From a virus, in the IMG/VR virus record IMGVR_UViG_3300037452_000114, positions 1-36,310 of that record: a stretch of 36,310 nt of DNA; one strand, given 5' to 3'. How positions within the stretch are numbered: the stretch's first letter is position 1; every line of letters begins with the position of its first letter. This document shows, piece after piece, positions 6,531 through 34,786 of the stretch. Below the pieces are notes generated by a model that made no database searches, was not told the DNA's origin, and saw only the letters and a list, made by a program, of their open reading frames with translations. The translations under genes were made by a program, and so were the position numbers.

Positions 6531-6820
6531 TGAATTGGTACGACCAAGGTCTGGCAGCAATCGAAACTGCAAAGCAGATTTTGCCTACCGCGCGAATGAC
6601 TGCGATTGTCCGATTGTACTCCGTGGCGATGGTTTTCTATCGGCATCCGATCGGAGATCGCGCATTGGATGAATTACGCAACATAATCGGCGTGGACGAG
6701 CTGAACGCTTTGTGTTTTCTGTGTGGATTTTCAACGGGCACGATGGACCCTGCTCGATGGGCAGAATTGGCTTGTATGACTAATCACGAATCGCGAGTCA
6801 CGAGTCACGAATCACTATGA
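6530..6820 (+). CDS. Hypothetical helical protein with a repeat-derived tail
   Basis: 96 aa from ATG 6530, with GGGGGAAG upstream. Helical body (AAIETAKQILP, ALDELRNIIGVDELNALCF). The last dozen residues (TNHESRVTSHESL) are translated from a heptamer array and nearly match the repeat-derived stretch TKHETRITDHDS in the gene at 5689. Its stop overlaps the ATPase start (ATGA), so the two are co-translated. Function unknown. Confidence 0.65.
   Translation: MNWYDQGLAAIETAKQILPTARMTAIVRLYSVAMVFYRHPIGDRALDELRNIIGVDELNALCFLCGFSTGTMDPARWAELACMTNHESRVTSHESL
6778..6816 (-). repeat. GTGRYTN heptamer array, partly coding
   Basis: Five units (reverse complement of CACGAAT CGCGAGT CACGAGT CACGAAT CAC) encode the tail of the upstream protein and occupy the ribosome-binding region of the ATPase gene. 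Confidence 0.8.
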
Positions 6821-10301: not shown

Positions 10302-10314
10302 AGCCAAAAATCCC

Positions 10315-15141: not shown

Positions 15142-15561
15142 TTACACCCATGCGCCGGTGCGCATTTGCTCTTCCAGGCGCACGGCCCGGTCTCCCACTT
15201 GGCGCGCCCATTCCGAATCCCTCATTTCGTCCGCCGCCGTTTCCCATTCGCCTTGCGCCACAGCCTGCAAAAACCTCGGGAACTTTTCGAGGCCGGCGAA
15301 TCCCATGTTGAAAATCATGTTTAGAATCACGCCTTGGCGGACTCCGTCGAGCGCTGGGAACCACGGAAGTTTTCCATTCGCTTCTATGGTGATCTCCCGA
15401 ATGTCGTTTTCTAAGAGGTGCTCGATTTCTTCGTCGCTGAGTCCCTTGCCGTTTAGGTTGCGCCCCACGCCGATGGTCAGCTTCCCTACGGTGTCCCGAT
15501 AGGGGAACTTGCGTACGCTTTCATCGCGGCGAAGCTGCTCGTAGATGTCGGCTATCGGCAT
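15142..15561 (-). CDS. Endolysin, T4-type lysozyme (GH24)
   Basis: 139 aa from ATG 15561. The catalytic triad is clear: E14 (RRDES), D23 (YRDTVG) and T29 (LTIGVG), with the exact E-9-D-6-T spacing of T4 lysozyme E11/D20/T26. Further family landmarks are NLNGKGLSDEE and NMIFNMGF. It cleaves the peptidoglycan glycan backbone during host lysis. No signal peptide, so release would need a holin; several candidates lie just downstream. Confidence 0.93.
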   Translation of the reverse strand: MPIADIYEQLRRDESVRKFPYRDTVGKLTIGVGRNLNGKGLSDEEIEHLLENDIREITIEANGKLPWFPALDGVRQGVILNMIFNMGFAGLEKFPRFLQAVAQGEWETAADEMRDSEWARQVGDRAVRLEEQMRTGAWV

Positions 15562-15995
15562 AGCGTCTTTTCCAAAATCGTTTTTCCCGCCTTCGTCAAT
15601 CCGCACTTTATCCATCCAGACATCTGAAAGCAATATCCCGGATTGGAGCTTTTGATTTTACTCCCATCGACAAACGTATAAGCGCGGCCCGGACCCCATC
15701 GCTCCACGGCGTGACTTTCGGCGTCCAGGATGATTTCACTGGACAGTCGCTCGCTTTCATTCCGAAAAATCGCGCAGTTGTATCCCGTTTGGCTGTCCAT
15801 TCGTAGAGTGGGATCGGGATACATCCAAACGAAAAGGACTGTTCCTGTTGTGTTTCGTAAGACGATTTTTCGGCCTGAATAGCAAAATTGTCGAGCTCCG
15901 ATGGTCCGCCGAGAGTAGTGGCGATCAGCCAATATGGACATTTCAGGATCGAAATGATTTGTGCGGATCAGTCGATTTGTGAATGGAAGGATCAC
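15552..15995 (-). CDS. GNAT-like phage protein
   Basis: 147 aa from a GTG at 15995 (ATG 15940 possible). The order 'ADRHYSRRTIGARQF', 'GRKIVLRNTTG', 'CAIFRNES', 'AYTFVDGSKI', 'NPGYCFQMSGW' and 'GLTKAGKTIL' matches a GNAT-fold family frequent in phages and prophages. The substrate is not known to me. The gene overlaps the lysozyme start by 10 bases. As in other phages I remember, it follows a small protein with the motif RAYLAYIAHRYRRQ. Confidence 0.75.
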   Translation of the reverse strand: MILPFTNRLIRTNHFDPEMSILADRHYSRRTIGARQFCYSGRKIVLRNTTGTVLFVWMYPDPTLRMDSQTGYNCAIFRNESERLSSEIILDAESHAVERWGPGRAYTFVDGSKIKSSNPGYCFQMSGWIKCGLTKAGKTILEKTLCR

Positions 15996-16008
15996 GGTCT
16001 CGGTGTGG

Positions 16009-16407
16009 CTATCGGCATTGGGAATCCGGCCTCGGTCTGGGAAGTGTACCGTAACTGGCCCAGCGCACGATCCAACAAAATTCCTCGTGCGTTGCTTTCC
16101 ATTGCCGTCTGTAGCGGTGGGCGATGTAGGCCAAGTAAGCCCGCCCGCGGTCGCTGAGTTGCGATCGATCGGGAATTAAATCGTGGATGAATCGTTTGTG
16201 GGAACTGGCGGGAACGAAGGTCACGTACCCTTGCAGTTTTCTCACGATGCCTTGTTCGATGGCATCCATCGGCGTGCGCGGCAGTTTTTCCCTAGGAGAG
16301 GTTTTTATGGGAGCGGCGCTAGTGGACGATGCGCCACTAGGCGCGACGTTTTGGCTCGCCGCTCCCCCCCTTGTGAGGGTATCGGGAATTCCTTCGAAAA
16401 GGCTCAT
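16009..16407 (-). CDS. Small conserved phage protein preceding the GNAT-like gene
   Basis: 132 aa. The N-terminal 45 residues are disordered (Ser/Ala/Pro-rich). The C-terminal half is helical with LSDRGRAYLAYIAHRYRRQW, the signature of a small protein that commonly accompanies the GNAT-like gene. No good Shine-Dalgarno is visible. Function unknown; the pairing suggests a joint role. Confidence 0.65.
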   Translation of the reverse strand: MSLFEGIPDTLTRGGAASQNVAPSGASSTSAAPIKTSPREKLPRTPMDAIEQGIVRKLQGYVTFVPASSHKRFIHDLIPDRSQLSDRGRAYLAYIAHRYRRQWKATHEEFCWIVRWASYGTLPRPRPDSQCR

Positions 16408-16416
16408 CGGAAAAAC

Positions 16417-16962
16417 TCATTCCAAAAGACTGAATAAAAACCATCCGGCCAGGATCGCCCCGCCGATCCAGAAGGCCGTACCTACCGACCATGCGGACAG
16501 CGCGCCGGACGTTGCGGGCACGCCGGGAAGCGGCAGCGGATTGCCTACGCTCACGGTGTATTGGCTGCCCATGTTTCCCAGGATCGTCTGGATGTAATCC
16601 TGAGTCTCGAGGGGCGCGTAGACGATCCAGGCGGCGCCGTGCGCGGCGATGGCCGCGTCCATGTTCCCCGGACCCCAATTGTAAGCGCCTAGGGCTTCCT
16701 TCACGTTCCCAGAGTATCTAGAGAGCATTTGGGAGAGATAGTGCACGCCGCCCTGAATGTTTTGCGTGGGATCGGTGGGATCGACGCCCAGATCGGCGGC
16801 TGTCGCGGGCTCCAACTGAAAAATCCCGATGGCCCCGGCCGGGCTGACGGCGGATTCGTTCAAGCCCGATTCCTGCATGGCCACTTCCAGCGCCAACCGC
16901 GGATCGACGCCGTAAGCCGTGGCCGTGGAAAGGATCAGAGCCGAGATGTCCTGTGAAGTCAT
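16417..16962 (-). CDS. Lytic transglycosylase (SLT) with C-terminal membrane anchor
   Basis: 181 aa. SLT fold landmarks: catalytic E31 in AMQESGLN, AIGIFQLEP (about 44-52) and AYNWGPGN (about 93-100). After a Pro/Gly linker the protein ends in one membrane helix (AFWIGGAILAGWFLFSLLE). In PRD1 a membrane-associated transglycosylase (P7) rides in the virion and opens peptidoglycan at entry; this tail-anchored version could do the same. The start overlaps the previous stop (ATGA). Confidence 0.88.
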   Translation of the reverse strand: MTSQDISALILSTATAYGVDPRLALEVAMQESGLNESAVSPAGAIGIFQLEPATAADLGVDPTDPTQNIQGGVHYLSQMLSRYSGNVKEALGAYNWGPGNMDAAIAAHGAAWIVYAPLETQDYIQTILGNMGSQYTVSVGNPLPLPGVPATSGALSAWSVGTAFWIGGAILAGWFLFSLLE

Positions 16963-17467: not shown

Positions 17468-18194
17468 GTAATTCGAGCCACTCGCTCAACTTGCGGCCCT
17501 TTATTTGCCTGTACTCGTCCACGTTCCCGATTTCCATCACTTTAATCCCATCGCGCGTTTCCCTTATTTTGTCGGCCATAGTGACGGTGTGCCGGTGAAA
17601 AGCGTACAAGCCACGATCTCCATCCTCGGTTTGAATTTGCAGCATCGTTTTCACCTTCAGCCCGAAACGCGCAATGTTGCGCGAAAGTACGTAATCGTCG
17701 ATCAGATGATCGCGCGTGATGCCGGATTTGCGTTCCTTCATAGTTGGTAGGATATTGTCGCGCGCTTGATCGAAAGATAAATCTTCGAGCGGATGCCACA
17801 AATCGATGCACCAGTCCGAGGCCGCTGCGAACCAATTGCAAGAACCGATATCCCGGCCATCCCGGCGAAAAAACTCATCGTATTTCCAACGATTTGACGC
17901 GTGATCCGTGGAATAGTGCGCTACGGTGTTTTTGGGCACGCGTTCTGTGATGTCCAGCATATCAGGCGAAATGACGGCATCGGAATCGATATAAATGTTC
18001 CAGTCGTTGGCTCTGCCCAGATAGAAAATTTGCAGCTTTTCGTAGGTGATGGGGGCCTCGGGAAATCGCCGCTCGTTGATGATCTGAAAATCCGCGCCGA
18101 TCTTGCGCGCGTATCCCAGCAGCAGCGGATAGGTCAGCTCGCACAGTTCCGGAGCGTAGTTTCCGACGTTCAGCGTCCAGAGGGTTTTCCTCAT
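17412..18194 (-). CDS. Glycosyltransferase, GT-A-like, with DxD motif
   Basis: 260 aa; ATG overlaps the previous stop (ATGA). N-terminal Rossmann-like region, then WNIYIDSDAVIS with D70-S-D72, the metal/nucleotide-sugar DxD motif of GT-A enzymes; later HYSTDH, NWFAAASDW and a C-terminal YAFHRH. It resembles the GT8/GT34-like enzymes of phages and bacteria. Donor and acceptor are unknown: it could modify host surface glycans, virion proteins or DNA bases. No hydroxymethylating enzyme is visible, so DNA glucosylation is less likely. Confidence 0.75.
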   Translation of the reverse strand: MRKTLWTLNVGNYAPELCELTYPLLLGYARKIGADFQIINERRFPEAPITYEKLQIFYLGRANDWNIYIDSDAVISPDMLDITERVPKNTVAHYSTDHASNRWKYDEFFRRDGRDIGSCNWFAAASDWCIDLWHPLEDLSFDQARDNILPTMKERKSGITRDHLIDDYVLSRNIARFGLKVKTMLQIQTEDGDRGLYAFHRHTVTMADKIRETRDGIKVMEIGNVDEYRQIKGRKLSEWLELHAVARSESYRAMEQTIGR

Positions 18195-19783: not shown

Positions 19784-21634
19784 TCATTGAATCGTCACTC
19801 CGGGACTGATCGTCACGCCTGGCGAAACACCTGTGGCTGGACTTAATGACGGAATCGCAGCTCCGCAATATGTAGCTGCCGTGAAGCTGCCTGCCAACGC
19901 AGCACTTATTTCCGCGTTATAGCAATTCCAATCCCATACGCCGATATCTTTTCCGTCCGTGCCCGCATTGTGGTAGGCGCTACTGCTGGTCAGTTGAAGA
20001 TTGCCCGTTCCTGGCACACCTGAAATGTTTGGATCGGCGCCACTAATGTTAGTGAATCCGACGCCTGCAATGTTGGTGCTCCAGAAGGTGCCGCTTGGAT
20101 ATGAACCTGTTGCCGTCCTAGTGAACACGTTATCGCCGTAGACATAAGAAGGAGCGAAGGTGTTCAAGGCTGGAGTTCCCGAACCTGTGCCGGTTCCTAA
20201 AATGCCACTGATTCCGTAATCGGCGATGTTGTTCGTATATTGAAATGCAGAAACTATGCCGGTATCTCCAAGCGTCAACGCAGCCTGATCCACGAACATT
20301 GTATTGTGATCATAGGTTATATGGGACATTGTTGCAGCGCTACTCACCCCCGTTTCAAGCGCCCATCCGAAACTTCCCCAGTTTGCCTTGCTTATGTCCG
20401 TAGCGACGTTGTTCTGAATGAGGACATTGTTGGTTGGTACGGCGGTGTTTGTTGGCCCTTGCTCCCAAGCAACTACCGCAAATACAGGGGCGTGTGCGAT
20501 TAAATTGTGGGTAATCGTTACATTCTGAGCCACACACCAAGTGCAGCTCCCAGATTGATTTACAGATCTCACGATTATAGATTCGTTCTGCACAGCCAGC
20601 CAAGTATATTGAAGAACATTGCCGTCGAGTAAAACTCTCTGGGCATTCTTTAATTCAAAATGGTTTTTTACGTCGGTGATAGCTGGAGACGCGCTGCACG
20701 GATTATAGGGAGGAGACGGGGAGCACCAAGCTAAGTTTTTCTGAAACAGATTCCCGATGATAACGATGTCTGAGGGAATCAGATTTGTAATTGCGGGATC
20801 AGCGCCTCCGAACATGATGTTTTCGCCGGTTGCCTGAAGGAAATTATTCTGAATCAGGAATGGTCCAATTCCGTTATAGGCGGTGAGGCACTGTGTATCC
20901 ACAGGATTCCCGAGGCTGTACACAATCTGATCGCAATAGCTATCCACAAGGGCGAACCCCTGCGTGTTGGCGTTAATGGCGTGCTGGATGCCTGCAGTTG
21001 TCACTCCCGCTCCCGCCCCGCCATAAATATAAGAACGGTCAAAGATGATGTTGGCGGGAAGCTGCGATGTGACGCTGATGGCCGTCGAATTGTTCGACTG
21101 AAAGCCCATGCCAACAAGCCAGAACACGGTATCGCTTGAGTTGGAATCTGACGTAGTTACTTCCACGCCAATGAATCGCCAATTGCATGAGCTTGGTAGA
21201 AATGCGATCGCTGGACTAACATTCGGCGTAGAAATCGCAGGCATGTTTACGACATTGGAGGACGCTATTCGATTTCCCGTCGCTGGTAGGCTCGTCAAAT
21301 TGGCCGACTCAACGATCACCCAACCGCTCCCATTGCATGACGTGGAGGGAATTGTAAAATTTCCACTGTAGGTCGCCACGGGCAGTACGATTGTGTCCCC
21401 AGGGCCAGAAGCATTGATGGCGCTTTGAAAGTTGGCCGTACTGCCCGATGGTACATTACGAATGCAGTTTGTTCCTGTGGTAAGAGTAGGACAGGTTGCC
21501 AATCCCTGGACGGGCATGGCGAGATTAACTGTAGATTGCGGCAACACGGGTTGCGTGATACCGGCCCTCGAAATATTTTGTAATATAAACAATTCTAAAA
21601 AGAGAAGAAATATTTCTTTGGTATGTGGCCTCAA
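19784..21634 (-). CDS. Exported right-handed beta-helix protein
   Basis: 616 aa from a TTG start (21634) with GGGTGG upstream. The N-terminus (MRPHTKEIFLLFLELFILQN) is a probable signal or membrane segment. Then a pectate-lyase-like repeat region with many N-rich turns (IIFDRSYIYGG, FLIQNNFLQATGENIMFGG, ITHNLIAHAP, ITYDHNTMFVD) and a terminal IGVWDWNCYN motif that I know from Acidobacteriota beta-helix proteins. Could be a surface-glycan-degrading spike or a secreted enzyme; catalytic residues cannot be assigned by eye. Base composition is more AT-rich than neighbouring genes, hinting at acquisition. Confidence 0.8.
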   Translation of the reverse strand: MRPHTKEIFLLFLELFILQNISRAGITQPVLPQSTVNLAMPVQGLATCPTLTTGTNCIRNVPSGSTANFQSAINASGPGDTIVLPVATYSGNFTIPSTSCNGSGWVIVESANLTSLPATGNRIASSNVVNMPAISTPNVSPAIAFLPSSCNWRFIGVEVTTSDSNSSDTVFWLVGMGFQSNNSTAISVTSQLPANIIFDRSYIYGGAGAGVTTAGIQHAINANTQGFALVDSYCDQIVYSLGNPVDTQCLTAYNGIGPFLIQNNFLQATGENIMFGGADPAITNLIPSDIVIIGNLFQKNLAWCSPSPPYNPCSASPAITDVKNHFELKNAQRVLLDGNVLQYTWLAVQNESIIVRSVNQSGSCTWCVAQNVTITHNLIAHAPVFAVVAWEQGPTNTAVPTNNVLIQNNVATDISKANWGSFGWALETGVSSAATMSHITYDHNTMFVDQAALTLGDTGIVSAFQYTNNIADYGISGILGTGTGSGTPALNTFAPSYVYGDNVFTRTATGSYPSGTFWSTNIAGVGFTNISGADPNISGVPGTGNLQLTSSSAYHNAGTDGKDIGVWDWNCYNAEISAALAGSFTAATYCGAAIPSLSPATGVSPGVTISPGVTIQ

Positions 21635-21649
21635 TGCATTCCACCCTGT

Positions 21650-24064
21650 TTAATCTGCCATACAAATTACTTTCAAAACATCGTTTGCCACAAATGCTGC
21701 GGGCGCTGTGACATCGCTAAAATTTGTAATTGTCACAGATGTGGTGCTCTCTGCCCCTGTTTGTCTTTGCATGGAAACAGTTGTTGATTGCGTAGTGATG
21801 TCACTTGCCGCGCAATTCCATCCCGTTGTGGCTGCTGGCATGGTGACTGTGCAGGCCGAACCTGGCGTTGTGCCGACGCCAATCTTGAATGCTGCCGTTC
21901 CGTTGTTGGCAGTAATAGAAGCAGCAGCGCCGCCACATCCTCCAGCGGCAATTGTTGGTGCGGTAAGTGAAATAAGTTTATTTCCATTCGCATTCGCGAG
22001 GCTGTCAGTGAAAAACAATTGAAATCCGGCAGTAATGTTACCGCTAGTGGTAAGTGAGCCAGCACTGTTTACTTTGAGTAAGGAAGCTCCTCCATTTGCA
22101 TGGAAATCTATGAAGTTTCCACCAAATCCACTAACTGAATTGATACCCATATAAGTACCTGATGTGTTCCAAGTTGCAGGAGCCGCCCCTCCATTTTGAT
22201 AAAACAACGGCGTTGACGTTGTTCCCGTCCCAGAGAACGGCGTGCCGGTCATATTCAATGCCGGCAATGACGCCGCCCCAGCCACCGGCAACGTAAGGTA
22301 TCCGGCCGGCTGTATGTTCCCTACTTTATCCACAGTGAATTGGCTGGTACCCCCCACAAGTAAATTCATCAACAATGATCCAGCAGCCGAAGATGTGTTC
22401 GTGACATTCTCCACGATGCCCTGGCCAGTAAGCCCCGCATTGTTCCACGTGGTTTCGACCTGCAAGGCCGGAAAAGCTACTGTACCTGTCACAGAGCCTT
22501 GGACGATTTCCAATGGTGTAGATGTGGATGCCGTAGCCGTGGAAAGTGAAACCAACGCCTGATTTGCCAGGAAGCCAGTCAGTGTGCCACCTGTGGCTGC
22601 CGAGGTTTCTCCAAACGCCATCCCATCCTGCGCATCGGTAGTTTGTGCCCAGTTCCAAGTCTGAGGATTGTTGCCGTTGGCGATGGTGTTCGATCCCGTC
22701 GCCGCCGTGATCGCGGATAGCGCCGCTCCTGAACTGCACGCTTGAAAATTCACAGGAGCCACGGCTGCGGACACCGTTCCGATCACCATACACTGCCCGG
22801 TGGTGGGCGCAGTGCTAGAAAACTGCAGGGCGTAGGCCGTGAACGCCGCTGTAGACGGACCCATGATGTTGAACGTGTTCGCCGCTGGCGTTACAGCCGT
22901 GGTGTTGCCAACAAGTGAGATATTTCCAGGGTGGACGCCATCAGGCCCAGTTCTGATGCCGCCAGCGCCCGTATAGGACAAGAGCGTGCCATTGTCTACC
23001 AGAAGCGTGTCCCAAGTGGATTGGCAGCTTCCTCCAGATGGGGCTGCGGACTTCAGAAATGTGCCATCCGTTGCCGATGTCGTGGGCAGAAGGATCGTGC
23101 AGGGAGTTCCGGCGACGGCCGCTATTCCGATGGCCGCAGCACCTGAAGTAGCCCCATTCATCGTTAAAGTGTCCGAAGTAAAGACGAAATTTCCGAAACC
23201 TGCGCCAGACTGCAGAATCGTAACAGATTGATCCGCCGCGCAAGTGGTACAAGTGGCTGAAATAAACGGAGTCCCATGTATGTTAAGATCAAACGTGTCT
23301 GCGCCCGCCGCTGCCGGTCCGAAAAAATGCGTTACTGCAGAAGAAACGCGAATGTCTAAATTCCCAGCTATTCCGCCGCCTACATAAATATCTTGCGTGC
23401 CGGCTACATCGGTAAACTGAAAATCAGCGCTGCCACTGATGGTGTTCGGCGCTGATCCTACAGCGATTTGACCAGATGCGATGCTTCCGGCGATCGTAGC
23501 CGAGCTGGTGTTGCACGTGGGGCAGGAAAGGGTTCCCGTGGCGATGATTGGATTGGGCGTTGCCACGATGGGGGACGTGGCCGAGATGCTGGTGACAGTG
23601 CCCGATCCGCTGCCGGCGAAATTGGTCATCTTTGGCGCCAAAGCGTTCAACGAAGTACTGATATCGACGGGAGAACTACCGCTGATCGTGGTACCCGTAC
23701 TGGTAAAAGTGAAGGTCTGCCCGCCGGTGCCTAGGGGAGCCTCGATCCCGCCTTGAGGGGAATTGATAGTGATCCGCCATTGCGGGCTGCCGGGAGTGAT
23801 CATAGTCACATCGCCAAAATTGGCGATGAATTTCCCTGTCGAATCGAGCGTCACCGGGCCAACTTGCCCGGAATACGGCGCGCCATTCAGCGTGTATCCG
23901 CCCGATGCGCCAGGTACTAGGACCGCGCTCATGGTCCCGCCTGCGTAGGGGATGCCGTTAGAGTCATGAACTGTGGCCGTCACGGTTGTAAATTGGGCGT
24001 GCGCAGCGGGAACAAAAAGAAACGCCCCGGCGACCGCCAGGGCGACACCGAAAAATTTTCGCAT
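21650..24064 (-). CDS. Large exported fibre-like protein
   Basis: 804 aa from ATG 24064, with GGAGGG directly upstream (an earlier ATG at 24118 has no ribosome site and overlaps the previous gene). Signal peptide FFGVALAVAGAFLFVPAAHA, then AQFTTVTATVHDSNGIPYAGG, a start typical of Acidobacteriota exported proteins. The rest is Gly/Ser/Thr/Ala-rich and repetitive, with fibre-like pieces (GSGTVTSISATSPIVATPNP) and a C-terminal domain (SITANNGTAAFKIGVGTTPG) that recurs in similar proteins. Probably a receptor-binding fibre or surface protein. A Sec signal on a phage fibre is unusual. Confidence 0.75.
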   Translation of the reverse strand: MRKFFGVALAVAGAFLFVPAAHAQFTTVTATVHDSNGIPYAGGTMSAVLVPGASGGYTLNGAPYSGQVGPVTLDSTGKFIANFGDVTMITPGSPQWRITINSPQGGIEAPLGTGGQTFTFTSTGTTISGSSPVDISTSLNALAPKMTNFAGSGSGTVTSISATSPIVATPNPIIATGTLSCPTCNTSSATIAGSIASGQIAVGSAPNTISGSADFQFTDVAGTQDIYVGGGIAGNLDIRVSSAVTHFFGPAAAGADTFDLNIHGTPFISATCTTCAADQSVTILQSGAGFGNFVFTSDTLTMNGATSGAAAIGIAAVAGTPCTILLPTTSATDGTFLKSAAPSGGSCQSTWDTLLVDNGTLLSYTGAGGIRTGPDGVHPGNISLVGNTTAVTPAANTFNIMGPSTAAFTAYALQFSSTAPTTGQCMVIGTVSAAVAPVNFQACSSGAALSAITAATGSNTIANGNNPQTWNWAQTTDAQDGMAFGETSAATGGTLTGFLANQALVSLSTATASTSTPLEIVQGSVTGTVAFPALQVETTWNNAGLTGQGIVENVTNTSSAAGSLLMNLLVGGTSQFTVDKVGNIQPAGYLTLPVAGAASLPALNMTGTPFSGTGTTSTPLFYQNGGAAPATWNTSGTYMGINSVSGFGGNFIDFHANGGASLLKVNSAGSLTTSGNITAGFQLFFTDSLANANGNKLISLTAPTIAAGGCGGAAASITANNGTAAFKIGVGTTPGSACTVTMPAATTGWNCAASDITTQSTTVSMQRQTGAESTTSVTITNFSDVTAPAAFVANDVLKVICMAD

Positions 24065-24073
24065 TTTCCCTCC

Positions 24074-24092
24074 GACGCACTCCCTGTGCGTC
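24074..24092 (-). promoter_or_regulatory. Leader hairpin, GUGCG family, copy 1
   Basis: A perfect 7-bp stem GACGCAC/GTGCGTC with a 5-nt loop (RNA loop AGGGA), then GGAGGG and ATG 24064. It lies in the 40-bp gap between the two large exported-protein genes. Confidence 0.65.
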
Positions 24093-24104
24093 CTCTTCCC
24101 TTCC

Positions 24105-25259
24105 CTACTGGAATCCAACGGTCAAATCCATCGCCGCGCTGGCCTTCACGCAAATCCCGTTTGTAAAAAATACGTCATAAATTTCTGGCGCGGCTGGAAA
24201 CGTAGCCGTTGCCGTGATAACCGAAACCACGTTCGTCGATGGAGTAGCGGTGCAAGCTGCGATTCCTAAGTCGAAAAGCGTCACCGTCCCAACCGCTGGA
24301 GTGCCGATCACTACGGTATGGACTAGCCCAGGTGTCGCTTTGACGGCCGTCGCAGTAGTGCCGGTGATATGGAAGTAACTTCCGAGAACTGGATTCGTCA
24401 ATCCCGGCGGAAAGAAAAGATAATCCAGGGCAGCCGATCCAGCTCCCGTAGTTCCGGCGGTGTAGATGACTTGAATCAGTCCGCACGGAAAACCGCCCAC
24501 TGAAAAAGTCTGTATAGCCGTTGAATTCGCGATGTTATAGGTTTCCGCCGTGTAGGTGTTATTTACTCCGTTGGCCACGCAATTCACGGCGATCGTCGAT
24601 CCGGCAATCGCTGCTGTGGTGTACTGGAAAACCAGACTTCCGTTCGTAGTTCCAAACGGAGGAACGATAAACTGACTAGTGAACGAAGTTCCTTCGTTCT
24701 GGCCGGCAAAAATAGGTTTATCGACTTGCGCGCTCAGATACGTTCCCGCGTTCACATTGGAAATCGCTTGCCCGCCGCTGTAACTCAACGTGAAAGTTCC
24801 GCCGGAACAAAGCACCACGACTTGAACTGTCGGGAAATAGCCGGTGCCTGTGACGCTGGGAGACGCTCCGGAAACGCCCGATCCAAAGGCCACATCCGAA
24901 ATGGTGAAAAGGTTCCCGGAGTTATCGATTCCCTGAATTTTCATGTTCAGGAACGTATTCACGTTACTTAAGGCGATGGTTGCGTAGTGCTGCGTTTGAT
25001 TTCGATTGTTCACCGGAAAGATTTGCGCGACTCCGGTGCAAGCTGTGGCAGTTGCTAGCGTTTGTTGAATAGGGACGAGAGACACCGGAGCCTGAGCCTT
25101 GGCCGACGCTGCGGCGAGCGCGCAAAGGATGAAAACCGTCAGCTTGGCCAGGCGCTTTTTCAGCGAGGGAAGGAATTGCTTCGGCGTTTTCCTGTTGGCG
25201 ATGGCCTTACGTAAACCTTGAATCTGTTTAGCCTTCGGAATGTTCATCTTTCGAGCCAT
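24105..25259 (-). CDS. Exported beta-rich protein, possible spike
   Basis: 384 aa; ATG immediately follows the previous TAA. The basic N-terminus (KAKQIQGLRKAIANRK) is followed by a hydrophobic export segment (LTVFILCALAAASAKAQ, about 39-55), an unusually long n-region for a signal peptide. The mature part is Thr/Gly/Val-rich beta sequence with scattered cysteines. Placed between capsid-like and fibre-like genes; a virion-surface or spike protein is plausible. No family recognised. Confidence 0.7.
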   Translation of the reverse strand: MARKMNIPKAKQIQGLRKAIANRKTPKQFLPSLKKRLAKLTVFILCALAAASAKAQAPVSLVPIQQTLATATACTGVAQIFPVNNRNQTQHYATIALSNVNTFLNMKIQGIDNSGNLFTISDVAFGSGVSGASPSVTGTGYFPTVQVVVLCSGGTFTLSYSGGQAISNVNAGTYLSAQVDKPIFAGQNEGTSFTSQFIVPPFGTTNGSLVFQYTTAAIAGSTIAVNCVANGVNNTYTAETYNIANSTAIQTFSVGGFPCGLIQVIYTAGTTGAGSAALDYLFFPPGLTNPVLGSYFHITGTTATAVKATPGLVHTVVIGTPAVGTVTLFDLGIAACTATPSTNVVSVITATATFPAAPEIYDVFFTNGICVKASAAMDLTVGFQ

Positions 25260-25425: not shown

Positions 25426-26139
25426 CTACCACGCTACCGGATTGTCCGACGCGTCGAATTGATCGTCCCAGGTGCGCGGATAGAAATAGCCGCTCAGAAG
25501 CGCGCCGGCATTCACGCCGGTAGGCAAAGCGTTGTTGCGCACTACCCACTGAATTACGTCGTTTTCAAAAATGCGAATGCCGGAAATACGCGAGGGATTA
25601 TTGATCAGCCCGAGCGAGGCCAGCACTTTTTCGTAATTTCTTTCCGCGTTGCCGCCGGTATACACGCCCGCCGGTGGATTGCGGACGATCTGCCACACGG
25701 CATCCCCAGAGAAATCCGCCCAAGCGCCGCCCACGATCACGTTGGCAATCCACTTGATCACGCCGTTTCTGCCCGGCGGACAGGTCACTTGGGCGACTAC
25801 CGTAAAAACCGTGGCGCTGATGGCCGGAAGCGCCACGCCTGCCGTGTTGCGAAACGATTCCGAATCCGGCGGCTCGATCAGCCAGGGCGCGGAAATCAGC
25901 CGCGTGGCGCGCTGGATTTGCTGCAAGACGCTTTGCGTATCTTGAATCGCGGCGATGGTGGGATCGGTCGAAACCGGCTCCGTGGGCGGCGGGCGCAGGA
26001 TCAACTTCGGCGCCATGCTGCGATCTGCGTGCAGCTTGTAGGGCCAGGTCGATCCCCGAATGGACGATGCGGCCGCGTCCGTGATGTTCGGTTGTCCCGA
26101 CGCTTCCGAAGGTCCGGTGTCTAGTTTGTCATACGCCAT
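25426..26139 (-). CDS. Beta-rich virion-type protein
   Basis: 237 aa from ATG 26139 (GTG 26157 also possible). The N-terminal 90 residues are Pro-rich and extended. From residue about 95 the pattern is a beta-sandwich: TVFTVVAQVTCPPGRNGVIKW, ANVIVGGAW, WQIVRN, IRIFENDVIQWVVRNNA, ending AGALLSGYFYPR. This strand rhythm is what I would expect of a jelly-roll or spike domain. Flanked by other beta-rich genes, so a capsid, vertex or spike component is likely; unproven. Confidence 0.7.
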   Translation of the reverse strand: MAYDKLDTGPSEASGQPNITDAAASSIRGSTWPYKLHADRSMAPKLILRPPPTEPVSTDPTIAAIQDTQSVLQQIQRATRLISAPWLIEPPDSESFRNTAGVALPAISATVFTVVAQVTCPPGRNGVIKWIANVIVGGAWADFSGDAVWQIVRNPPAGVYTGGNAERNYEKVLASLGLINNPSRISGIRIFENDVIQWVVRNNALPTGVNAGALLSGYFYPRTWDDQFDASDNPVAW

Positions 26140-26263
26140 CGGGGTTTCCCCAATCACTTTGGTTGAAGCATTTCGGGCACGAACTTTCTAAAACCAATCC
26201 AGGGAGCCATCGCCATTTGCGATGGACAATCAAGCACCAAAAGAATCTGAACCAGAGTTTCAT
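26129..26263 (-). CDS. Possible 44-aa zinc-knuckle protein
   Basis: ATG 26263 to TGA 26129, overlapping the start of the next gene by 11 bases. A Trp/Arg-rich N-terminus (MKLWFRFFWCLIVHRKWRW) is followed by CPKC. The start codon is at the edge of a heptamer array and lacks a good Shine-Dalgarno. Confidence 0.35.
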   Translation of the reverse strand: MKLWFRFFWCLIVHRKWRWLPGLVLESSCPKCFNQSDWGNPDGV

Positions 26264-26298: not shown

Positions 26299-26802
26299 TC
26301 ACTGCCTCCACCACGTCGAATATCCGAACATGCACAGGTCCACGATGTTAGTGGTGCTGCCGCTGAGATTTTGAATCTTGCAGACTACCGGCGAACCCGC
26401 GGCGATGAAGTGCGGGATGCGCACTAGGCCGGGCTCTTGGGCGATGGGCGCGAAATTGGATTGATTCTGCCCGTACTTGGAATATTTGTAGGCGCCTTCC
26501 TCTTCGGTGATCTGAAAGCGGAAGCTGCCTTGATTGCCGATGCTGGCCACAGACGCGCGGCCCATTACGGCCACGAGCCAAAAATCCTCCGTCACCGTGA
26601 TGCGCGTCAAATCAGTTTGCCCAGCAGTGAGCGACAATTCCGGGAATTGGTACCAGAATAAATGCGCGCTGTGCAGGGAGAGCCTCACCCACTGCGGCAG
26701 CGTCCACGCCGCCGACGCCAACTTCCGGCGATTCTGCCAGGCGCCCAGCGTGGGATTCATCGGCGCGCCCGGCACTCGTCCTTGTATCCACGGGTTGATC
26801 AT
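26299..26802 (-). CDS. Candidate single jelly-roll capsid or spike protein A
   Basis: 167 aa. A basic helical N-terminus (about 1-45) is followed by about eight short strands: LFWYQFPELSLT, RITVTEDFWLVAVMGRAS, SFRFQITEEE, LVRIPHFIAAGSPVVCKIQN, TNIVDLCMFGYSTWW. The motif order (early V-x-x-D-F-W-L, late 'x-N-x-V-x-L-x-x-F-G-Y') is shared with the next upstream gene (26867-27352), suggesting paralogy. A pair of single jelly-roll proteins is the capsid plan of P23-77-type phages; that parallel is inference. A hairpin sits six bases before the start codon. Confidence 0.7.
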   Translation of the reverse strand: MINPWIQGRVPGAPMNPTLGAWQNRRKLASAAWTLPQWVRLSLHSAHLFWYQFPELSLTAGQTDLTRITVTEDFWLVAVMGRASVASIGNQGSFRFQITEEEGAYKYSKYGQNQSNFAPIAQEPGLVRIPHFIAAGSPVVCKIQNLSGSTTNIVDLCMFGYSTWWRQ

Positions 26803-26842: not shown

Positions 26843-26872
26843 AAATTACGAATCACTACTCACGAATCACGA
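26843..26872 (-). repeat. GTGRYTN heptamer array
   Basis: Minus-strand GTGATTC GTGAGTA GTGATTC GTAATTT, spanning the end of the upstream gene and the gap before the hairpin. Confidence 0.7.
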
Positions 26873-27352
26873 TGGAGAAGGCAACGCTCCGAGCTGCGCG
26901 GCCATCGCTGCCGGGTACAGTTTGTAGCCCCAGAAATCCACTTGCACGGTGTTCGCCGTGCCGCTCGTGTCAATCGTCGTGACCTTGTACGAGCGCTTTT
27001 TGGGCATGAGTTGAGGAATCAGTCCCGCCGGGAACGGCAGTTGCGCCGTGCCTACGAAATTGTCGAAATTCACCGGAGCGCTCTGCCAGGCCAGGCCGCC
27101 CGCGCCGCCTTCCGTCACTTGAATGCTGAGGGCGTTGCTGGTGCGGCTGCCGATCAGCATCAAAAGCTGGAAATCGGCATCGCTGTCAATCTGGAACGAT
27201 TGCGCCTGCGTGTCGTTCCCGGCGTGCGTCAGATTGACGATGTAGTGAAACAATTTGGCGATGTAAAGCTGGCCGCCCAGTTCCATGATTTGCGGATCGG
27301 CTTGCAGCGCATTCATTTGATCCTGCGTGAGTGCCGGCACTTGCGAACTCAT
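26867..27352 (-). CDS. Candidate single jelly-roll capsid or spike protein B
   Basis: 161 aa. A helical N-terminus (TQDQMNALQADPQIM) precedes a beta-rich domain: FQIDSDADFQLLMLIGSRTS, LSIQVTEGGAGG, an NFDNFVGTAQLPFPAGL turn, YKVTTIDTSG and NTVQVDFWGYKLYP. The pattern 'D-F-x-L-L ... G-T-A-x-x-P-F ... S-G-x-A-N-x-V-x-x-x-F-x-G-Y' recurs in small structural-looking phage proteins I have seen, and parallels protein A. A capsid, vertex or spike role is likely, but the fold needs confirmation. Confidence 0.7.
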   Translation of the reverse strand: MSSQVPALTQDQMNALQADPQIMELGGQLYIAKLFHYIVNLTHAGNDTQAQSFQIDSDADFQLLMLIGSRTSNALSIQVTEGGAGGLAWQSAPVNFDNFVGTAQLPFPAGLIPQLMPKKRSYKVTTIDTSGTANTVQVDFWGYKLYPAAMAAQLGALPSPS

Positions 27353-27509: not shown

Positions 27510-28274
27510 CTACAGAACGGCTCGTGCCTTCTGCCCTTCCAGATACACCCACGCGTTGATGCCCGTGCCGATGGGCACGGTATTGTTGGCGTTGGTGGTG
27601 AAGCCCGTGGCTTGCGCCCAGGCCGCCAGCGTGGGATCGACTTCCACTTTGAACGCCTGTTGCTGGGCGATCAAAATGCCGTCGATTTCCGGGAACTGGT
27701 CGACGCCGGGAGTGCCTGGGCATCCGGGGTCCGTCAAGCGGAATCCCTGGTGCTCGTTGGGCAACCCGTTGCCTACCGGCCCGATGATGGTGTTGGCCGC
27801 CGTGGCGCCGAATTGCTGCGCCCAGATGCCGCCGCCCGCCGGAAGTTTTAGGAAGTGCGCGACCACGAAGAACGATTTCGTGGAGATGAAAAAGTTCACG
27901 ATGGTCTGGCTTCCGAACTTGATGGCGTCCGTCTGGTTGCACAGATTGTCCAACACGCAGGTGATCCCGCGAACGAGCATCCGTTCGGGGGCCTGCAACT
28001 GGTTCGGCTGCACCATGCTGGTCATCTGCAGGGTTTTCGCTACCGTGGCGCCGCCGGTGATGGTGAAATTGTTGTTCTGTACGATCGAGAACAGCGTTTG
28101 CTTCACTACCGCCGTGGAAACCGCCACGCCGTAATAATCCCATTCCGGCTGAACCACGAAATCTCCCAGCCCTGCCGCCAGCATGTTTTTCAAGCGGAAG
28201 CGGGGCCGGCCGATTTCATGCGCCGAAATTTCCGGCAAATGAGCGAATCTCTTTACCTTGCTAAGAAGTTGCAT
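27510..28274 (-). CDS. Candidate major capsid protein, beta-rich
   Basis: 254 aa with AGGAG before ATG. After a basic N-terminus come regularly spaced strands: TLFSIVQNNNFTIT, LQMTSMVQPNQL, ERMLVRGITCVLDN, QTIVNFFISTKSFFVVAHFL then KLPAGGG, a variable loop, AFKVEVDP and a final INAWVYLEGQKARAVL. The 'P-E-R-M-L-V-R-x-I ... F-x-I ... L-P-A-G-G' run recalls putative jelly-roll capsid proteins of unclassified phages. It is the largest non-exported beta protein in the structural cluster. Assignment is tentative; a minor capsid role is the main alternative. Confidence 0.65.
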   Translation of the reverse strand: MQLLSKVKRFAHLPEISAHEIGRPRFRLKNMLAAGLGDFVVQPEWDYYGVAVSTAVVKQTLFSIVQNNNFTITGGATVAKTLQMTSMVQPNQLQAPERMLVRGITCVLDNLCNQTDAIKFGSQTIVNFFISTKSFFVVAHFLKLPAGGGIWAQQFGATAANTIIGPVGNGLPNEHQGFRLTDPGCPGTPGVDQFPEIDGILIAQQQAFKVEVDPTLAAWAQATGFTTNANNTVPIGTGINAWVYLEGQKARAVL

Positions 28275-30660: not shown

Positions 30661-31005
30661 TTAAGCCGATGCCGCCTTTTTGCCGCGCGTGGAAAGACGT
30701 TCCGGCGGGAGCGCCACGGTCAAGCCATGCTTCATGTGCCCGCGCTTGTAAAGCTGCACGTCCACCAGGCCCTTAGAAAGCTGGACCGAGCGGACCACGC
30801 CGTCCAAATCCTCGCCTTCGATGTTGGCAACCACTTCGTCGCCAGGATTGTATTCGTCATGCTTTTTCGTGCTGGTCATCGCTCGCTCCTTGTCGTTTTG
30901 ATCGCCTTCCGTTTCTTCCAAATCTAGATCGTCCTGCAAAGCCTGTTCGGCTTCATCTTCCCGAGCCTCGCGCGATGCTTCCTGCCGTTTCGTTTCGTGC
31001 GTCAT
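30661..31005 (-). CDS. Acidic protein with KOW/SH3-like C-terminus
   Basis: 114 aa from ATG 31005, with GGAGGAAAG upstream and an ATGA overlap with the previous stop. The first 45 residues are a very acidic helix (ASREAREDEAEQALQDDLDL). From residue 50 a small beta barrel is likely (YNPGDEVVANIEGEDLDGVV, GLVDVQLYKRG), of the KOW/SH3 type that binds RNA or protein. The C-terminus is basic. An internal start at MTSTKKHDE could yield a shorter form. Confidence 0.7.
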   Translation of the reverse strand: MTHETKRQEASREAREDEAEQALQDDLDLEETEGDQNDKERAMTSTKKHDEYNPGDEVVANIEGEDLDGVVRSVQLSKGLVDVQLYKRGHMKHGLTVALPPERLSTRGKKAASA

Positions 31006-31841
31006 CGGCGCTTTCCTCCGGTGAAATTGTTTAGCAAAACCACAGCCGCAACAAATCCGCCGATGTATAAAGCGTTGTTCTCTAGCCACGTCAAAGCATC
31101 ATTCGGATTGGGATTCGGATTCGGCGCGGCCCCTCCTGATGGTGTGGACACTAACGAAAGATTGGAGCCTGAAATGTTGTTTCCCACGATTCCAATTAGC
31201 ACGCCATCGCATACAGACTTGGCATCGCTCGTGAATGCATTCCCTACCGAATCCAGGATCGTGAACTGAAAATGAATCGGCGCGCCCGTCCCAAACACCT
31301 TATTCAAAATCGTCTCGTCGTTACTCGATTGCACTACTGACATGCCATGAGCCGTGAGAGCCGAAGCGAATTGAGACATTGCCGAAGCCGGAGTGACCGT
31401 CAAATTCCCCGGGCCGCCCACAACCGTCGCAGTATAGAGAACTGTGCTTCCGCTGGGGACTTGCGCAGGCAAAGCAGACTGCGGAGTTTGCACAGAGACC
31501 GATGTTGGCGTTACCGTGGTTCCTTCCGTAGTTTTGAGTCCCCCGTATTTCGCCATCAGAGTAGGCACGTCAGTCGTGCCAGCCATCAACGCCTGAATGT
31601 CGGCGTCCGTAGCGCCCGCAGCGCTCAAGGCATCGATTGTGTTGCCGTCGAGACCGGCATCCCAAGCTGCTTGCATCTGTGCGTCAGAAACAGTGCCAAG
31701 GTTGCCGTGCGATCCCGCGTGGTATCCCAGCATCGCATGCGCGCCGGGCTGATAGCCGAGCATCGCGTGCGCGCCGGGTTGATAACCCATGCCCATTCCG
31801 GACCGAAGTTCCTCAAACGCGGGATGGTTCGGAAAAATCAT
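31002..31841 (-). CDS. Tail-anchored virion-type protein with GYQPGAHAML repeats
   Basis: 279 aa; ATG overlaps the previous stop (TGATG). Residues 18-48 hold three tandem copies of a 10-residue repeat (GYQPGAHAML, GYQPGAHAML, GYHAGSHGNL). A UBA-like helical stretch (IDALSAAGATDADIQALMAG) follows, then a beta-rich middle and one C-terminal membrane helix with a basic end (ALYIGGFVAAVVLLNNFTGG, then KRR). One of a group of tail-anchored proteins in this operon; likely a virion membrane protein. Confidence 0.75.
   Translation of the reverse strand: MIFPNHPAFEELRSGMGMGYQPGAHAMLGYQPGAHAMLGYHAGSHGNLGTVSDAQMQAAWDAGLDGNTIDALSAAGATDADIQALMAGTTDVPTLMAKYGGLKTTEGTTVTPTSVSVQTPQSALPAQVPSGSTVLYTATVVGGPGNLTVTPASAMSQFASALTAHGMSVVQSSNDETILNKVFGTGAPIHFQFTILDSVGNAFTSDAKSVCDGVLIGIVGNNISGSNLSLVSTPSGGAAPNPNPNPNDALTWLENNALYIGGFVAAVVLLNNFTGGKRR
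31713..31796 (-). repeat. 30-bp coding repeat, three copies
   Basis: Tandem DNA repeat encoding the GYQPGAHAML units of the protein at 31002-31841. Two copies are nearly identical, indicating recent duplication. Confidence 0.8.
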
Positions 31842-32029
31842 CAGCGTCCTATTTTCTCCGAGTGTATAAATTCTAATTCGGACACTTCGACTTTAGAAAT
31901 TTCACCGTCATCAAAACGTACTTCAATCGCAAACGGATCGTCGGTGAATGCATGGACAATTCCAAACCGTTTCGTTTGGGACATAAAAACCTTATCTCCA
32001 ATTTTCAAAGTAGTTCCATCAAAAATCAT
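31841..32029 (-). CDS. Small KOW/SH3-like protein
   Basis: 62 aa from ATG 32029, which overlaps the previous stop (ATGA). Beta-barrel rhythm: LKIGDKVFMSQTKRFGIVHA, FAIEVRFDDGEISKVEVSEL. Resembles the C-terminal half of the protein at 30661-31005. Perhaps a small RNA- or protein-binding factor; unproven. Confidence 0.7.
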   Translation of the reverse strand: MIFDGTTLKIGDKVFMSQTKRFGIVHAFTDDPFAIEVRFDDGEISKVEVSELEFIHSEKIGR

Positions 32030-32631
32030 CGCCGCCGCCCTTTCTTTCCGCCCAGAAGCCACGATGCCGCGATTACTGCCGCCGCAGCCACGAGGCCGTT
32101 AGGATATCCGGCGAACAAAGTTTCCTCGGAAAGCCAATTCGTGATCGACGAAAACGAAAATCCCGACGATGGCGCGGCGGCGCTGGCCGAACCTTGCGCG
32201 ATCTGCGCGGCGCTAGGAGCGGGCGTGCCGGAAATCAAATCTCCCTGCGCGGCGAGGGCGGAACCTTGCGGCGTCAATTTATTTCCGCCGGTCAAGAGCG
32301 AGCCGGACTGATACAGCGTTTGCGCGTCCCCGGTGAGATAGCCAGAATAGGTGACGCCCGTCACGGGATCGACGATGCCCGTCAACTCCACCGGCAAGCC
32401 GCCAGGCGATCCCGAAGTGGAGACCGTTTGACCTGTGGCCACGACGGGGCCTTGCACTTCCACCGGAAGTTGTTCCGGCTGGACTCCTGGTTGTACTTGT
32501 TGCGGGGGAAGAATGTGCGGTGCTGGCGTTTCGGGAATCGGCAACACAGTCCGGGAAAGAGGCATATTGACGCGCATCGCTGAAAAGGAAGCCAGCGCAG
32601 CGCCCAGATGAGGATCGGTGATGGCGATCAT
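32026..32631 (-). CDS. Tail-anchored virion-type protein
   Basis: 201 aa from ATG 32631 (ATGA overlap). Pro/Gln/Gly-rich extended body; a short beta-like motif (GIVDPVTGVTYSGYLTG); then SITNWLSEETLFAGYPNG, a membrane helix (LVAAAAVIAASWLL) and the tail GGKKGRRR. The LFAGYPN-membrane-basic end matches two neighbours, so these are paralogues or share an anchoring module. C-terminal single-helix anchors suit small virion membrane proteins. Confidence 0.75.
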   Translation of the reverse strand: MIAITDPHLGAALASFSAMRVNMPLSRTVLPIPETPAPHILPPQQVQPGVQPEQLPVEVQGPVVATGQTVSTSGSPGGLPVELTGIVDPVTGVTYSGYLTGDAQTLYQSGSLLTGGNKLTPQGSALAAQGDLISGTPAPSAAQIAQGSASAAAPSSGFSFSSITNWLSEETLFAGYPNGLVAAAAVIAASWLLGGKKGRRR

Positions 32632-33401
32632 CGCCGCCTCTTTCTTGGCCGGGACTGTATGTAGGAAAACGCAATCGTTCCCAACAGCAGCCCCACGCCA
32701 ACGACGCCGTAATTGGGAAAACCGGGAATCATCGTGGAGCCGGTAAACCACGACGTAAGTGAACTCATCGCACCGGAAATGTTTCCGAAAGGCGAGGTTG
32801 TCGACGGCGTTTTGTACAAATTTCCGCCATTCAAAAGCGTCTGCCCTTGCGTGGTGAGTTTTCCCGCAGCCGTCACGAGCTGGCCCGCGGCCTGCAAACC
32901 CTGCGCGGCCACGCTTAAGTTATTGGTGTTCACCGTATTCGTCACGCCGCTGTTCGGATCGGTGATGTTTATATCTTGTCCTTGTCCCGTCGCAGTGGTC
33001 TGCAGGTTCGCCGTCGCCGTCCCAGAGGTAGCCGCGGTGATCTGTTCCGCGATGGTGTACGGCACGGTCTGCCCGGTCTGAATGTTGGTGTAGGTGCCGT
33101 CGCCGTTGCTGGTGAATTCGTTGCCCACAGTGGCCGGATACATCGTCTCCAGCGACGGAGAAAGTTGATTCGGCAGCGGCAAAACAGGCATATCGATCGT
33201 GGCAGGCGGACCTAAATCGATGATCGGCGGCGCGGGATTGTCTGGAGCAATAAGTCCGCCGGCAACGTCCGTGGAAGTGGTATCGAATGCGATGGGATCT
33301 TGGCCCAGCATTCCCAGGAACGCGCCGCGCATGCCGCAGCACCGTTCGCCCGTGGGCGATACGGTGAGTCCAGGAAGCGGAGAATCAAGTTGCGCGTACA
33401 T
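32628..33401 (-). CDS. Tail-anchored virion-type protein
   Basis: 257 aa. Body rich in P, T, Q and N (TNIQTGQTVPYTIAEQIT, GLQAAGQLVTAAGKL) with a repeat-like section shared in style with the protein at 32026. It ends SLTSWFTGSTMIPGFPNYG, a membrane helix (VVGVGLLLGTIAFSYI) and a strongly basic tail QSRPRKRRR. The start is preceded by a GGYAA-loop hairpin rather than a clear Shine-Dalgarno. Likely membrane-associated virion component. Confidence 0.75.
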   Translation of the reverse strand: MYAQLDSPLPGLTVSPTGERCCGMRGAFLGMLGQDPIAFDTTSTDVAGGLIAPDNPAPPIIDLGPPATIDMPVLPLPNQLSPSLETMYPATVGNEFTSNGDGTYTNIQTGQTVPYTIAEQITAATSGTATANLQTTATGQGQDINITDPNSGVTNTVNTNNLSVAAQGLQAAGQLVTAAGKLTTQGQTLLNGGNLYKTPSTTSPFGNISGAMSSLTSWFTGSTMIPGFPNYGVVGVGLLLGTIAFSYIQSRPRKRRR

Positions 33402-33433
33402 GGCTTTTTCCGAGGCCCCTTACCGGGGCCTTA
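33402..33433 (-). promoter_or_regulatory. Leader hairpin, GGYAA-loop family, copy 3
   Basis: A perfect 7-bp stem AGGCCCC/GGGGCCT (33413-33431), RNA loop GGUAA, 11 bases before ATG 33401. The upstream GGGAGG lies on the far side of the hairpin, as at 30615. Confidence 0.7.
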
Positions 33434-33775
33434 GCGATGCCTCCCGCCAAAAACTTTAGCCAAAACGAAAACGCCCGCGCCGATGGCAAAGATCGAATTC
33501 GGCATTCCGGGAATGAACGTAGATTCCCCCATCCAAGTGAGCATCTGATCCCAGATACTCGTCGAAGTGGGCGTGGTCGCCGTGCTGATGGCGAATTGCC
33601 CGCCGGGGCCGAACGAAATATTAGTAAGCGGCGAATCTCCCAAGTCGCCCAGGCCGCGAAAGTTGGGATGGATGGCGTTTTTGTTGCGCGTGGAAAGCAG
33701 GCCGTACGCGCCGAGTCCGCGGAAATTCGGATTCAGCCCGTTGCCGTTCTTCGTGGATAGTCGCGCGTAGGCCAT
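33431..33775 (-). CDS. Tail-anchored protein with two PNFRGLG repeats
   Basis: 114 aa. The N-terminus carries two tandem copies of a roughly 22-residue motif (LSTKNGNGLNPNFRGLG, LSTRNKNAIHPNFRGLG), also present once in the protein at 33824. A Ser/Thr/Gly-rich linker precedes LTWMGESTFIPGMPNS, a membrane helix (IFAIGAGVFVLAKVF) and GGRHR. Only a weak ribosome site is visible; the leader is a heptamer array. Likely virion membrane protein. Confidence 0.75.
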   Translation of the reverse strand: MAYARLSTKNGNGLNPNFRGLGAYGLLSTRNKNAIHPNFRGLGDLGDSPLTNISFGPGGQFAISTATTPTSTSIWDQMLTWMGESTFIPGMPNSIFAIGAGVFVLAKVFGGRHR

Positions 33776-33787
33776 TTTTTTATAAAC

Positions 33788-33820
33788 CGTGACTCGTGAT
33801 TCGTGATTCGTGAATCGTGA
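33788..33820 (+). repeat. GTGRYTN heptamer array
   Basis: GTGACTC GTGATTC GTGATTC GTGAATC GTGAAAA, in the 48-bp gap upstream of the gene starting at 33775. Confidence 0.8.
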
Positions 33821-33823
33821 AAA

Positions 33824-34786
33824 TCATCCCGCTACCGCCCAGGCGCCGACGGCGGCCAGCGCGATCCAGCCCCAGGCCGGGATTTGCGAAAGGGAAAATC
33901 CCGCTGGCGATGGAGGGATGCCGCCCACCACTTCGGGAACTTGCGAACCGCCTTGCGAAGTTTGCACAGCCGGGGGCGCGCCCGGTGCTGCAGATGCCGC
34001 CGCAACTTGAGCGGCTGATGCCGCAGCTTGCGCGGCCTGCGTCTGAAATTGTTCTTGCCAATAGAGGACCATCGCGTACAGGCAGATGCTTAACAAACAA
34101 TTGCTGTTGCAGTAGGGGCTATCGTTGATCGCCGCGCCGCCGCCGGGAATGCTGGATGGACCGGAAGCGCTTCCCGACGCGCCGCCCGCCTTCATGTACT
34201 GCGAATAAATTTCCGGCAGCGCGCTGGCCGCATCCCCCGGATTCATTTGTCCGCTTTGCACTGCTTTGAAAATCACGGAAAAAGCGTTGTTGACGGCGGG
34301 AATCACGCTGCATCCGAAATTCAAGTCGCGCCGTACGGCCGCGGCATGATGCTGAAAAATCGTACCGATCAAACTGATGATCGCGCCGACGCCTGCAACG
34401 ACCCATCCGATCACCGGAACGGCTGCGGCGGCGATGATGTGCGTACCCGCCAGAATCCCGATCCCGGCGGAAGTAGTTCCCAAGGCCAGTCCGTTGGCAG
34501 TTTGAAACAAGTTGACCGATTGCGCTTGAATCCCGGTGCAATCCGGGCCGATCGGCGGGGTTGCGGGCATCTGCCCGGAAGCAACAAAAGGCTCGAGCGT
34601 GGCCAGCCATCCTGAATTCCCGGACGGCGCGGGATTTACGTTGAACCTGGAATACGCTTGCAGAGCTTTATTCAGCGCGTCCATCGGAGAAAGTGAAGTG
34701 GAGGAATCGCCCAGGAAACCGAGTCCGCGAAAATTCGGATGCAGCCCGTTCTTGTTTCGCGTCGATAGAAGCGCGTAGGCCATCAT
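33824..34786 (-). CDS. Membrane protein with PNFRGLG motif
   Basis: 320 aa; ATG overlaps the previous stop (ATGA). N-terminal LSTRNKNGLHPNFRGLG motif; a helical section (MDALNKALQAYSRFNVNP); a hydrophobic hairpin (HIIAAAAVPVIGWVVAGVGA, IISLIGTIFQHHAAA); a Cys-rich stretch (YCNSNCLLSICLYAMVLYW); an Ala/Gln coiled segment; and a final membrane helix (IPAWGWIALAAVGAWAVAG). Probably an integral virion membrane protein. Confidence 0.75.
   Translation of the reverse strand: MMAYALLSTRNKNGLHPNFRGLGFLGDSSTSLSPMDALNKALQAYSRFNVNPAPSGNSGWLATLEPFVASGQMPATPPIGPDCTGIQAQSVNLFQTANGLALGTTSAGIGILAGTHIIAAAAVPVIGWVVAGVGAIISLIGTIFQHHAAAVRRDLNFGCSVIPAVNNAFSVIFKAVQSGQMNPGDAASALPEIYSQYMKAGGASGSASGPSSIPGGGAAINDSPYCNSNCLLSICLYAMVLYWQEQFQTQAAQAAASAAQVAAASAAPGAPPAVQTSQGGSQVPEVVGGIPPSPAGFSLSQIPAWGWIALAAVGAWAVAG

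Follow-up and report, generated by a model that had tools for sequence, protein, structure and literature searches.

Predicted Sec export signals on a modular late-operon protein array in a probably tailless virus family of Acidobacteriota

We report that a virus family which appears to be undescribed, and whose proviruses point to its host, encodes in its late operon an array of large modular proteins, two of which carry clear and conserved predicted Sec signals. The analysis covered the whole 36,310 nucleotides of IMG/VR record IMGVR_UViG_3300037452_000114 (the window) and 25 relatives, made up of 22 viral contigs, 1 Terriglobia MAG contig and 2 proviruses in Terriglobia chromosomes; counts over 26 genomes include the window. 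The usual assumption is that phages build their attachment proteins in the cytoplasm. Our best explanation, held tentatively and at somewhat less than an even chance, is that the array proteins are Sec-exported attachment (spike or receptor-binding) proteins, which would fold outside the cytoplasm and join the particles from outside. The signals, their conservation, the late-operon position and the modularity are either directly seen or strongly supported; the step from these features to attachment is more open to dispute, and a role as secreted host-surface proteins is a close rival.

Virus family and hosts

A 127-bp end repeat shows the window to be a complete circular genome, the unit being 36,183 bp, and most of the close relatives (34-37 kb) are likewise end-repeated (77-127 bp). 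The family had no match among 50,697 cultured phage records; the capsid-like protein, the p804 N-domain, p804 and p616 were each without a match in cultured phages, and no description of the family was found in the open-access literature. Profile searches reached a second clade, in which the capsid-like protein is 38-44% identical, as well as further members in Terriglobia genomes. Proviruses of the family are integrated in two long Terriglobia (Acidobacteriota) contigs, G173 (boundaries G173:C10:73007 and 100101) and G334 (G334:C42:138278 and 174065; L113-L118 for both), between genes that look miaB-like and truB-like by eye. Repeats of 18 and 15 bp border them and lie in a dif-like site, laid out as a XerC-like arm (ACATAA), a 6-bp centre and a TTATCAGAC/TTATCGGAC arm, which suggests Xer-type integration without an integrase of their own; no exact attP-like motif was found in the window clade. 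These two proviruses place the hosts of the family in the Acidobacteriota, as the earlier note had supposed, and show that some members, if not all, are temperate. The window's own tie to Acidobacteriota is by kinship.

The late operon lies on the minus strand and is cleanly delimited by gene conservation against the relatives. Family matches were obtained for the transglutaminase-like, lysozyme, SLT, DnaB and SNF2-methylase proteins, the other late proteins tested matching nothing. Lysozyme (15142-15633, minus strand; Pfam PF00959) and an SLT transglycosylase (16417-16962, minus strand; PF01464) make up a lysis block (15142..16962), and since both are encoded, the particles are probably released by lysis. 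Between the lysis genes and the array is a 260-aa protein (17412-18194, minus strand) found in 10 relatives at 68% identity; it appears glycosyltransferase-like by eye (YIDSD), the Pfam match reaching only E 0.13. The gene for a fusion of SNF2-type helicase and DNA methylase (10255-12537, plus strand) appears to be exchanged, its counterparts (33% identity) being confined to 4 related contigs.

Capsid model and virion type

The earlier note had implied the setting of an ordinary tailed phage, and this was not supported. When 20 main proteins were searched against Pfam and PHROGs, there was no significant match to terminase, portal, HK97 capsid or tail genes, an absence from profiles that is not proof; the top terminase profile match (E 0.026) falls on a 625-aa protein (6817..8694, plus strand). 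This protein has a Walker A-like motif (GQTQLSGKT), is 81% identical in relatives and is a candidate packaging ATPase, with no family match and no significant similarity to SSIP-1 gp40 (E 0.03). The putative major capsid protein (MCP; 254 aa; 27510..28274, minus strand) lacks a signal and is about 93% identical in close relatives. Its AF2 model from 24 sequences is of moderate confidence (pLDDT 63, pTM 0.63), the model from 8 near-identical sequences reaching a pLDDT of only 27, and neither the MCP profile nor the ATPase yielded a useful match in PDB sequence searches. The best structural neighbour of the model is SPV1 (Z 8.1), and among further neighbours are the capsid proteins of HHIV-2, P23-77, SH1 and HCIV-1 (Z 5.7-6.2). 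With moderate confidence, then, the MCP would be a single jelly roll, nearest to the SPV1, sphaerolipovirus and SSIP-1 capsid proteins. A Z near 8 may reflect a common arrangement, and the model is support, not proof, of a tailless single-jelly-roll virus. The window virus is probably tailless, given that genes for terminase, portal or tail went unrecognised and that the MCP models as a single jelly roll. One capsid-protein homologue (L134:5941-6840) has an in-frame stop near its N-terminus.

Among tailless phages, SSIP-1 is close to the window virus, with a circular dsDNA genome of similar size and, as is probable for the window virus, no tail. The MCP model matches two capsid-like viral models, 211 and 256 aa long (probability 0.99 and 0.97), which appear to be the adjacent SSIP-1 structural proteins gp46/gp47, judged by their lengths and neighbouring accessions. 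SSIP-1 differs in having no sequence match to the window and a Bacteroidota-type halophile as host, versus Acidobacteriota for the window family. The Sphaerolipoviridae and Matsushitaviridae (HCIV-1, HHIV-2, SH1, P23-77, IN93) have single jelly-roll capsids that neighbour the MCP model (Z 5.7-6.2), but their genomes are 16-31 kb and match the window nowhere in sequence. Viruses of the sphaerolipovirus and SSIP-1 kind are characterised by vertical single jelly rolls in their major capsid proteins, by capsid proteins of two types, by related packaging ATPases and by a membrane inside the particle.

Export signals of the array proteins

The p384, p804 and p616 ORFs are consecutive, with gaps of less than 45 nt, which confirms the three consecutive large late proteins of 384, 804 and 616 aa described before. 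Signals were predicted by a rule of our own, not SignalP, that combines a basic n-region, a 10-residue uncharged hydrophobic stretch and an AXA-like site. The rule called signals in 7 of the 52 window genes versus about 1.1 expected from shuffled N-termini, and p384 and p804 scored highest of the 52. In p384 (24105..25259, minus strand), a predicted conserved exported protein, a basic leader (aa 1-40; 25140-25259) precedes the h/c-region of the signal (aa 41-55; 25095-25139; LTVFILCALAAASAKA before Q), and the mature protein would start at Q56. The predicted modular exported protein p804 (21650..24064, minus strand; 822 aa if begun at an upstream TTG) has a conserved N-domain and a variable remainder, with its signal at aa 1-23 (23996-24064; MRKFFGVALAVAGAFLFVPAAHA before Q). 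The signals of these two proteins are clear, and their prediction as Sec/signal-peptidase-I substrates is strongly supported. The last protein of the array, p616 (19784..21634, minus strand; TTG start), has a weak signal at aa 1-24 (21563-21634; MRPHTKEIFLLFLELFILQNISRA before G). A Glu interrupts its hydrophobic stretch, and p616 fails the strict rule on that account; a membrane-like segment is present at aa 8-26. Of the Sec signals that the earlier note saw on all three proteins, those of p384 and p804 thus stand, and that of p616 is weaker.

It had also been considered that the true starts might lie downstream of the signals. Shine-Dalgarno sequences are found at the first starts of p804 (GGAGGGAAAATG), p384 (CGGAGAAAAAGTAAATG) and, weakly, p616 (GGGTGGAATGCATTG), upstream of the signal in each case, and downstream of the signals SD-like matches occur in the three genes only at isolated GTG codons. 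A chance origin of the signals or a wrong start was rejected on the shuffled-N-terminus scores, the conservation over 26 genomes and the Shine-Dalgarno positions. None of the three proteins has a C-terminal TM segment, only marginal internal ones being present in p384 and p804. The 40-aa leader of p384 in the window clade looks like a fused gene, since it is a separate 40-aa ORF in G024 (G024:C8:31071-31187) and its counterpart in G027 (G027:C1:20449-20562) is part of another ORF.

Also in the late operon, 4-5 conserved small proteins (31002..34786, minus strand) have a hydrophobic C-terminal stretch, often with a basic tail (KRR, RRR, RHR). They are possible virion membrane proteins, of which only two passed a strict TM scan. 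Two late proteins in this interval (33431-33775 and 33824-34786, minus strand) have a common N-terminal STRNKNGLHPNFRGLG-like motif that is repeated in relatives. These candidate membrane-associated proteins, together with the relation of the capsid model to internal-membrane viruses and a long basic p384 leader that could remain cytoplasmic, would fit an alternative that we consider improbable: the array proteins would cross the inner membrane, stay with the future internal virion membrane by an uncleaved anchor or in the lumen of the vesicle (periplasmic in topology), and end inside the particle. The conserved AXA-Q cleavage sites argue instead for release, and a swapping of ends as in receptor-binding proteins would be unexpected for internal proteins; the internal membrane is itself hypothetical, the hydrophobic C-termini of late proteins being all that is seen of it.

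Conservation and modularity of the array

By our rule, signals are predicted in 20/20 p384 homologues and in 40/45 N-domain (p804-type) proteins across the 26 genomes. At least 3 of the 5 remaining N-domain proteins carry by eye a signal that the rule rejects. The conserved capsid-cluster proteins p161 (26867..27352), p167 (26299..26802) and p243 (25426..26157), all on the minus strand, adjoin the MCP and are universal in the 26 genomes, each with a signal in 0/26. None was called in the MCP (0/25), the ATPase (0/23), or the transglutaminase-like protein and one further late protein (0/25). A limit of the rule shows in p195, a membrane-like late protein that it calls positive in 9/26. The division between array and capsid cluster argues for the attachment reading, as does the fact that the array directly follows the capsid cluster, the gene order MCP-p161-p167-p243-p384-array being kept in both clades with insertions in some members. 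Signal sequences vary, with the hydrophobicity and the AQ cleavage residues kept in nearly all and AQ invariant in p384; the preserved AQ site and the Shine-Dalgarno-backed starts ahead of the signals are further points for attachment. In mature p384, the cysteines at 74, 151, 227 and 259 are invariant and those at 336 and 370 nearly so, and exported parts have a higher Cys content than other families, which also favours this reading.

p384 homologues are found in nearly all family members, and the array in relatives typically comprises 2-5 large proteins. p616 has no homologue in ten close relatives; unrelated signal-bearing proteins take its position, and the array ends are unrelated between close relatives. 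The exported genes have a GC of 0.50-0.55 versus 0.59 for the capsid genes, which fits exchanged modules. Unrelated ends and lower GC are as in receptor-binding modules and are thus consistent with attachment. The middle module of p804 recurs in the L018 and G015 proteins, which match a minor-tail profile.

Pfam and PHROGs hold no family for the array proteins. The strong matches answer the question whether homologues lie in acidobacterial chromosomes or in phages: they are family members, proviruses included. We rejected ordinary chromosomal genes as the homologues of the array, since strong N-domain matches (E <1e-18) and full p384 matches were found only in family members; one partial p384 match lies in a tailed provirus. 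Weaker N-domain matches (E ~1e-4) include short ones to host transthyretin-like domains, the profile match spanning 27-28 residues at 38-41% probability. This weak match to exported host proteins with such a domain would allow the signals to be functionless leftovers of exported host proteins from which modules were captured. We regard that as very improbable: the signals persist nearly everywhere, in members down to 32-44% MCP identity, the h-region has changed but the cleavage site has not, and members of the array that are unrelated have their own signals.

Comparison with other viruses

No signal was predicted in the proteins of at least 250 aa examined, spikes included, from seven tailless phages (SSIP-1, P23-77, HCIV-1, PM2, PRD1, FLiP and IN93), so the contrast with known phages drawn earlier is upheld. 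The large proteins of SSIP-1, the 734-aa structural gp57 included, and the large structural proteins of HCIV-1, P23-77 and IN93 are without signals, unlike the window array. Sphaerolipovirus spike genes are the least conserved of the structural genes (PMC5332951), and the putative spike genes of the window family are similar in this. Pleolipovirus spikes do bear signal peptides (PMC6381117), but the HRPV-1 VP4 spike belongs to an enveloped archaeal virus and is anchored in the membrane as a type I protein; p384, p804 and p616 have no C-terminal anchor. In the open-access literature we found no account of signals on spikes of tailless phages. The tail fibres of tailed phages resemble the window array in being modular, hypervariable and encoded in a late operon; the tail-type L018 and G015 proteins, however, contain the p804 module and have no signal.

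Signals as a general trait of Acidobacteriota phages were rejected: of nine Acidobacteriota regions with a portal that were examined, four have a tail region that could be read (the long-tailed prophages G183, G169, G320 and G285), and their fibre-like proteins are without signals. Two tailed viruses do have signal-bearing proteins in their late regions. Contig G012 (L041-L043), with HK97 head-protein and weak terminase matches, encodes five successive signal-bearing proteins after tail genes; it is Acidobacteriota-associated. The provirus G352 (G352:C19:184001-207000; L205, L206), which has a terminase, encodes a p384-like protein and one of 1006 aa, both of which by eye start with a signal. 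From their gene content both look short-tailed, and an export module common to tailless and tailed viruses argues against a purely particle-specific reason for it.

This shared feature of tailless and tailed viruses of apparently the same hosts favours the close rival, in which the array proteins stay out of virions and, secreted or displayed on the outer surface, change the infected or lysogenic cell or what surrounds it, for instance by adhesion, matrix modification, receptor masking or superinfection exclusion. Such a role is quite possible, though we rather doubt it. It would account for export signals on proteins with no known docking route, for family members that can be proviruses, and for the short, weak resemblance of the N-domain to host exported transthyretin-like domains. 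Less easily explained by secretion are the position of the array in a late operon beside capsid and lysis genes and the near-universal presence of p384, unlike typical accessory genes; modularity and the minor-tail-like module also fit attachment proteins.

Discussion

We favour an attachment role because of the late position of the array, its near-universal presence and the module in common with a minor-tail-like protein. In such a scheme the late operon, after the capsid genes, encodes the large modular array (p384, p804, p616), whose products would be exported by host Sec and cleaved by signal peptidase I before the conserved Q. They would then fold in the oxidising periplasm, probably with disulphides, as the conserved cysteines suggest. 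The host-attachment apparatus would consist of p384 as a conserved base and of exchangeable receptor-binding parts, namely p804 and the last protein, and may dock onto particles from outside, at envelope passage or at cell lysis. Several points weigh against attachment. There is no known route by which exported spikes could dock onto intracellular particles released by lysis, SSIP-1 and other tailless phages manage without spike signals, and export by two tailed viruses means that the feature is not tied to one particle type. The signals are moreover predicted, that of p616 is weak, and the capsid model is of moderate confidence.

A broader proposal would be that this family of tailless dsDNA phages finishes its particles outside the cytoplasm, with an entire attachment apparatus that is Sec-exported, matured in the periplasm and added from outside, and that short-tailed phages of the same hosts use the same pool of exported modules. 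We put this forward as a possibility that is on balance doubtful; if true, it would add a way of assembling particles that is so far undescribed in tailless phages. Acidobacteriota are a major phylum in soil, with hardly any description of their viruses, and attachment and secretion are both testable there: the family either completes its particles differently or spends a near-constant share of its late operon on the host surface.
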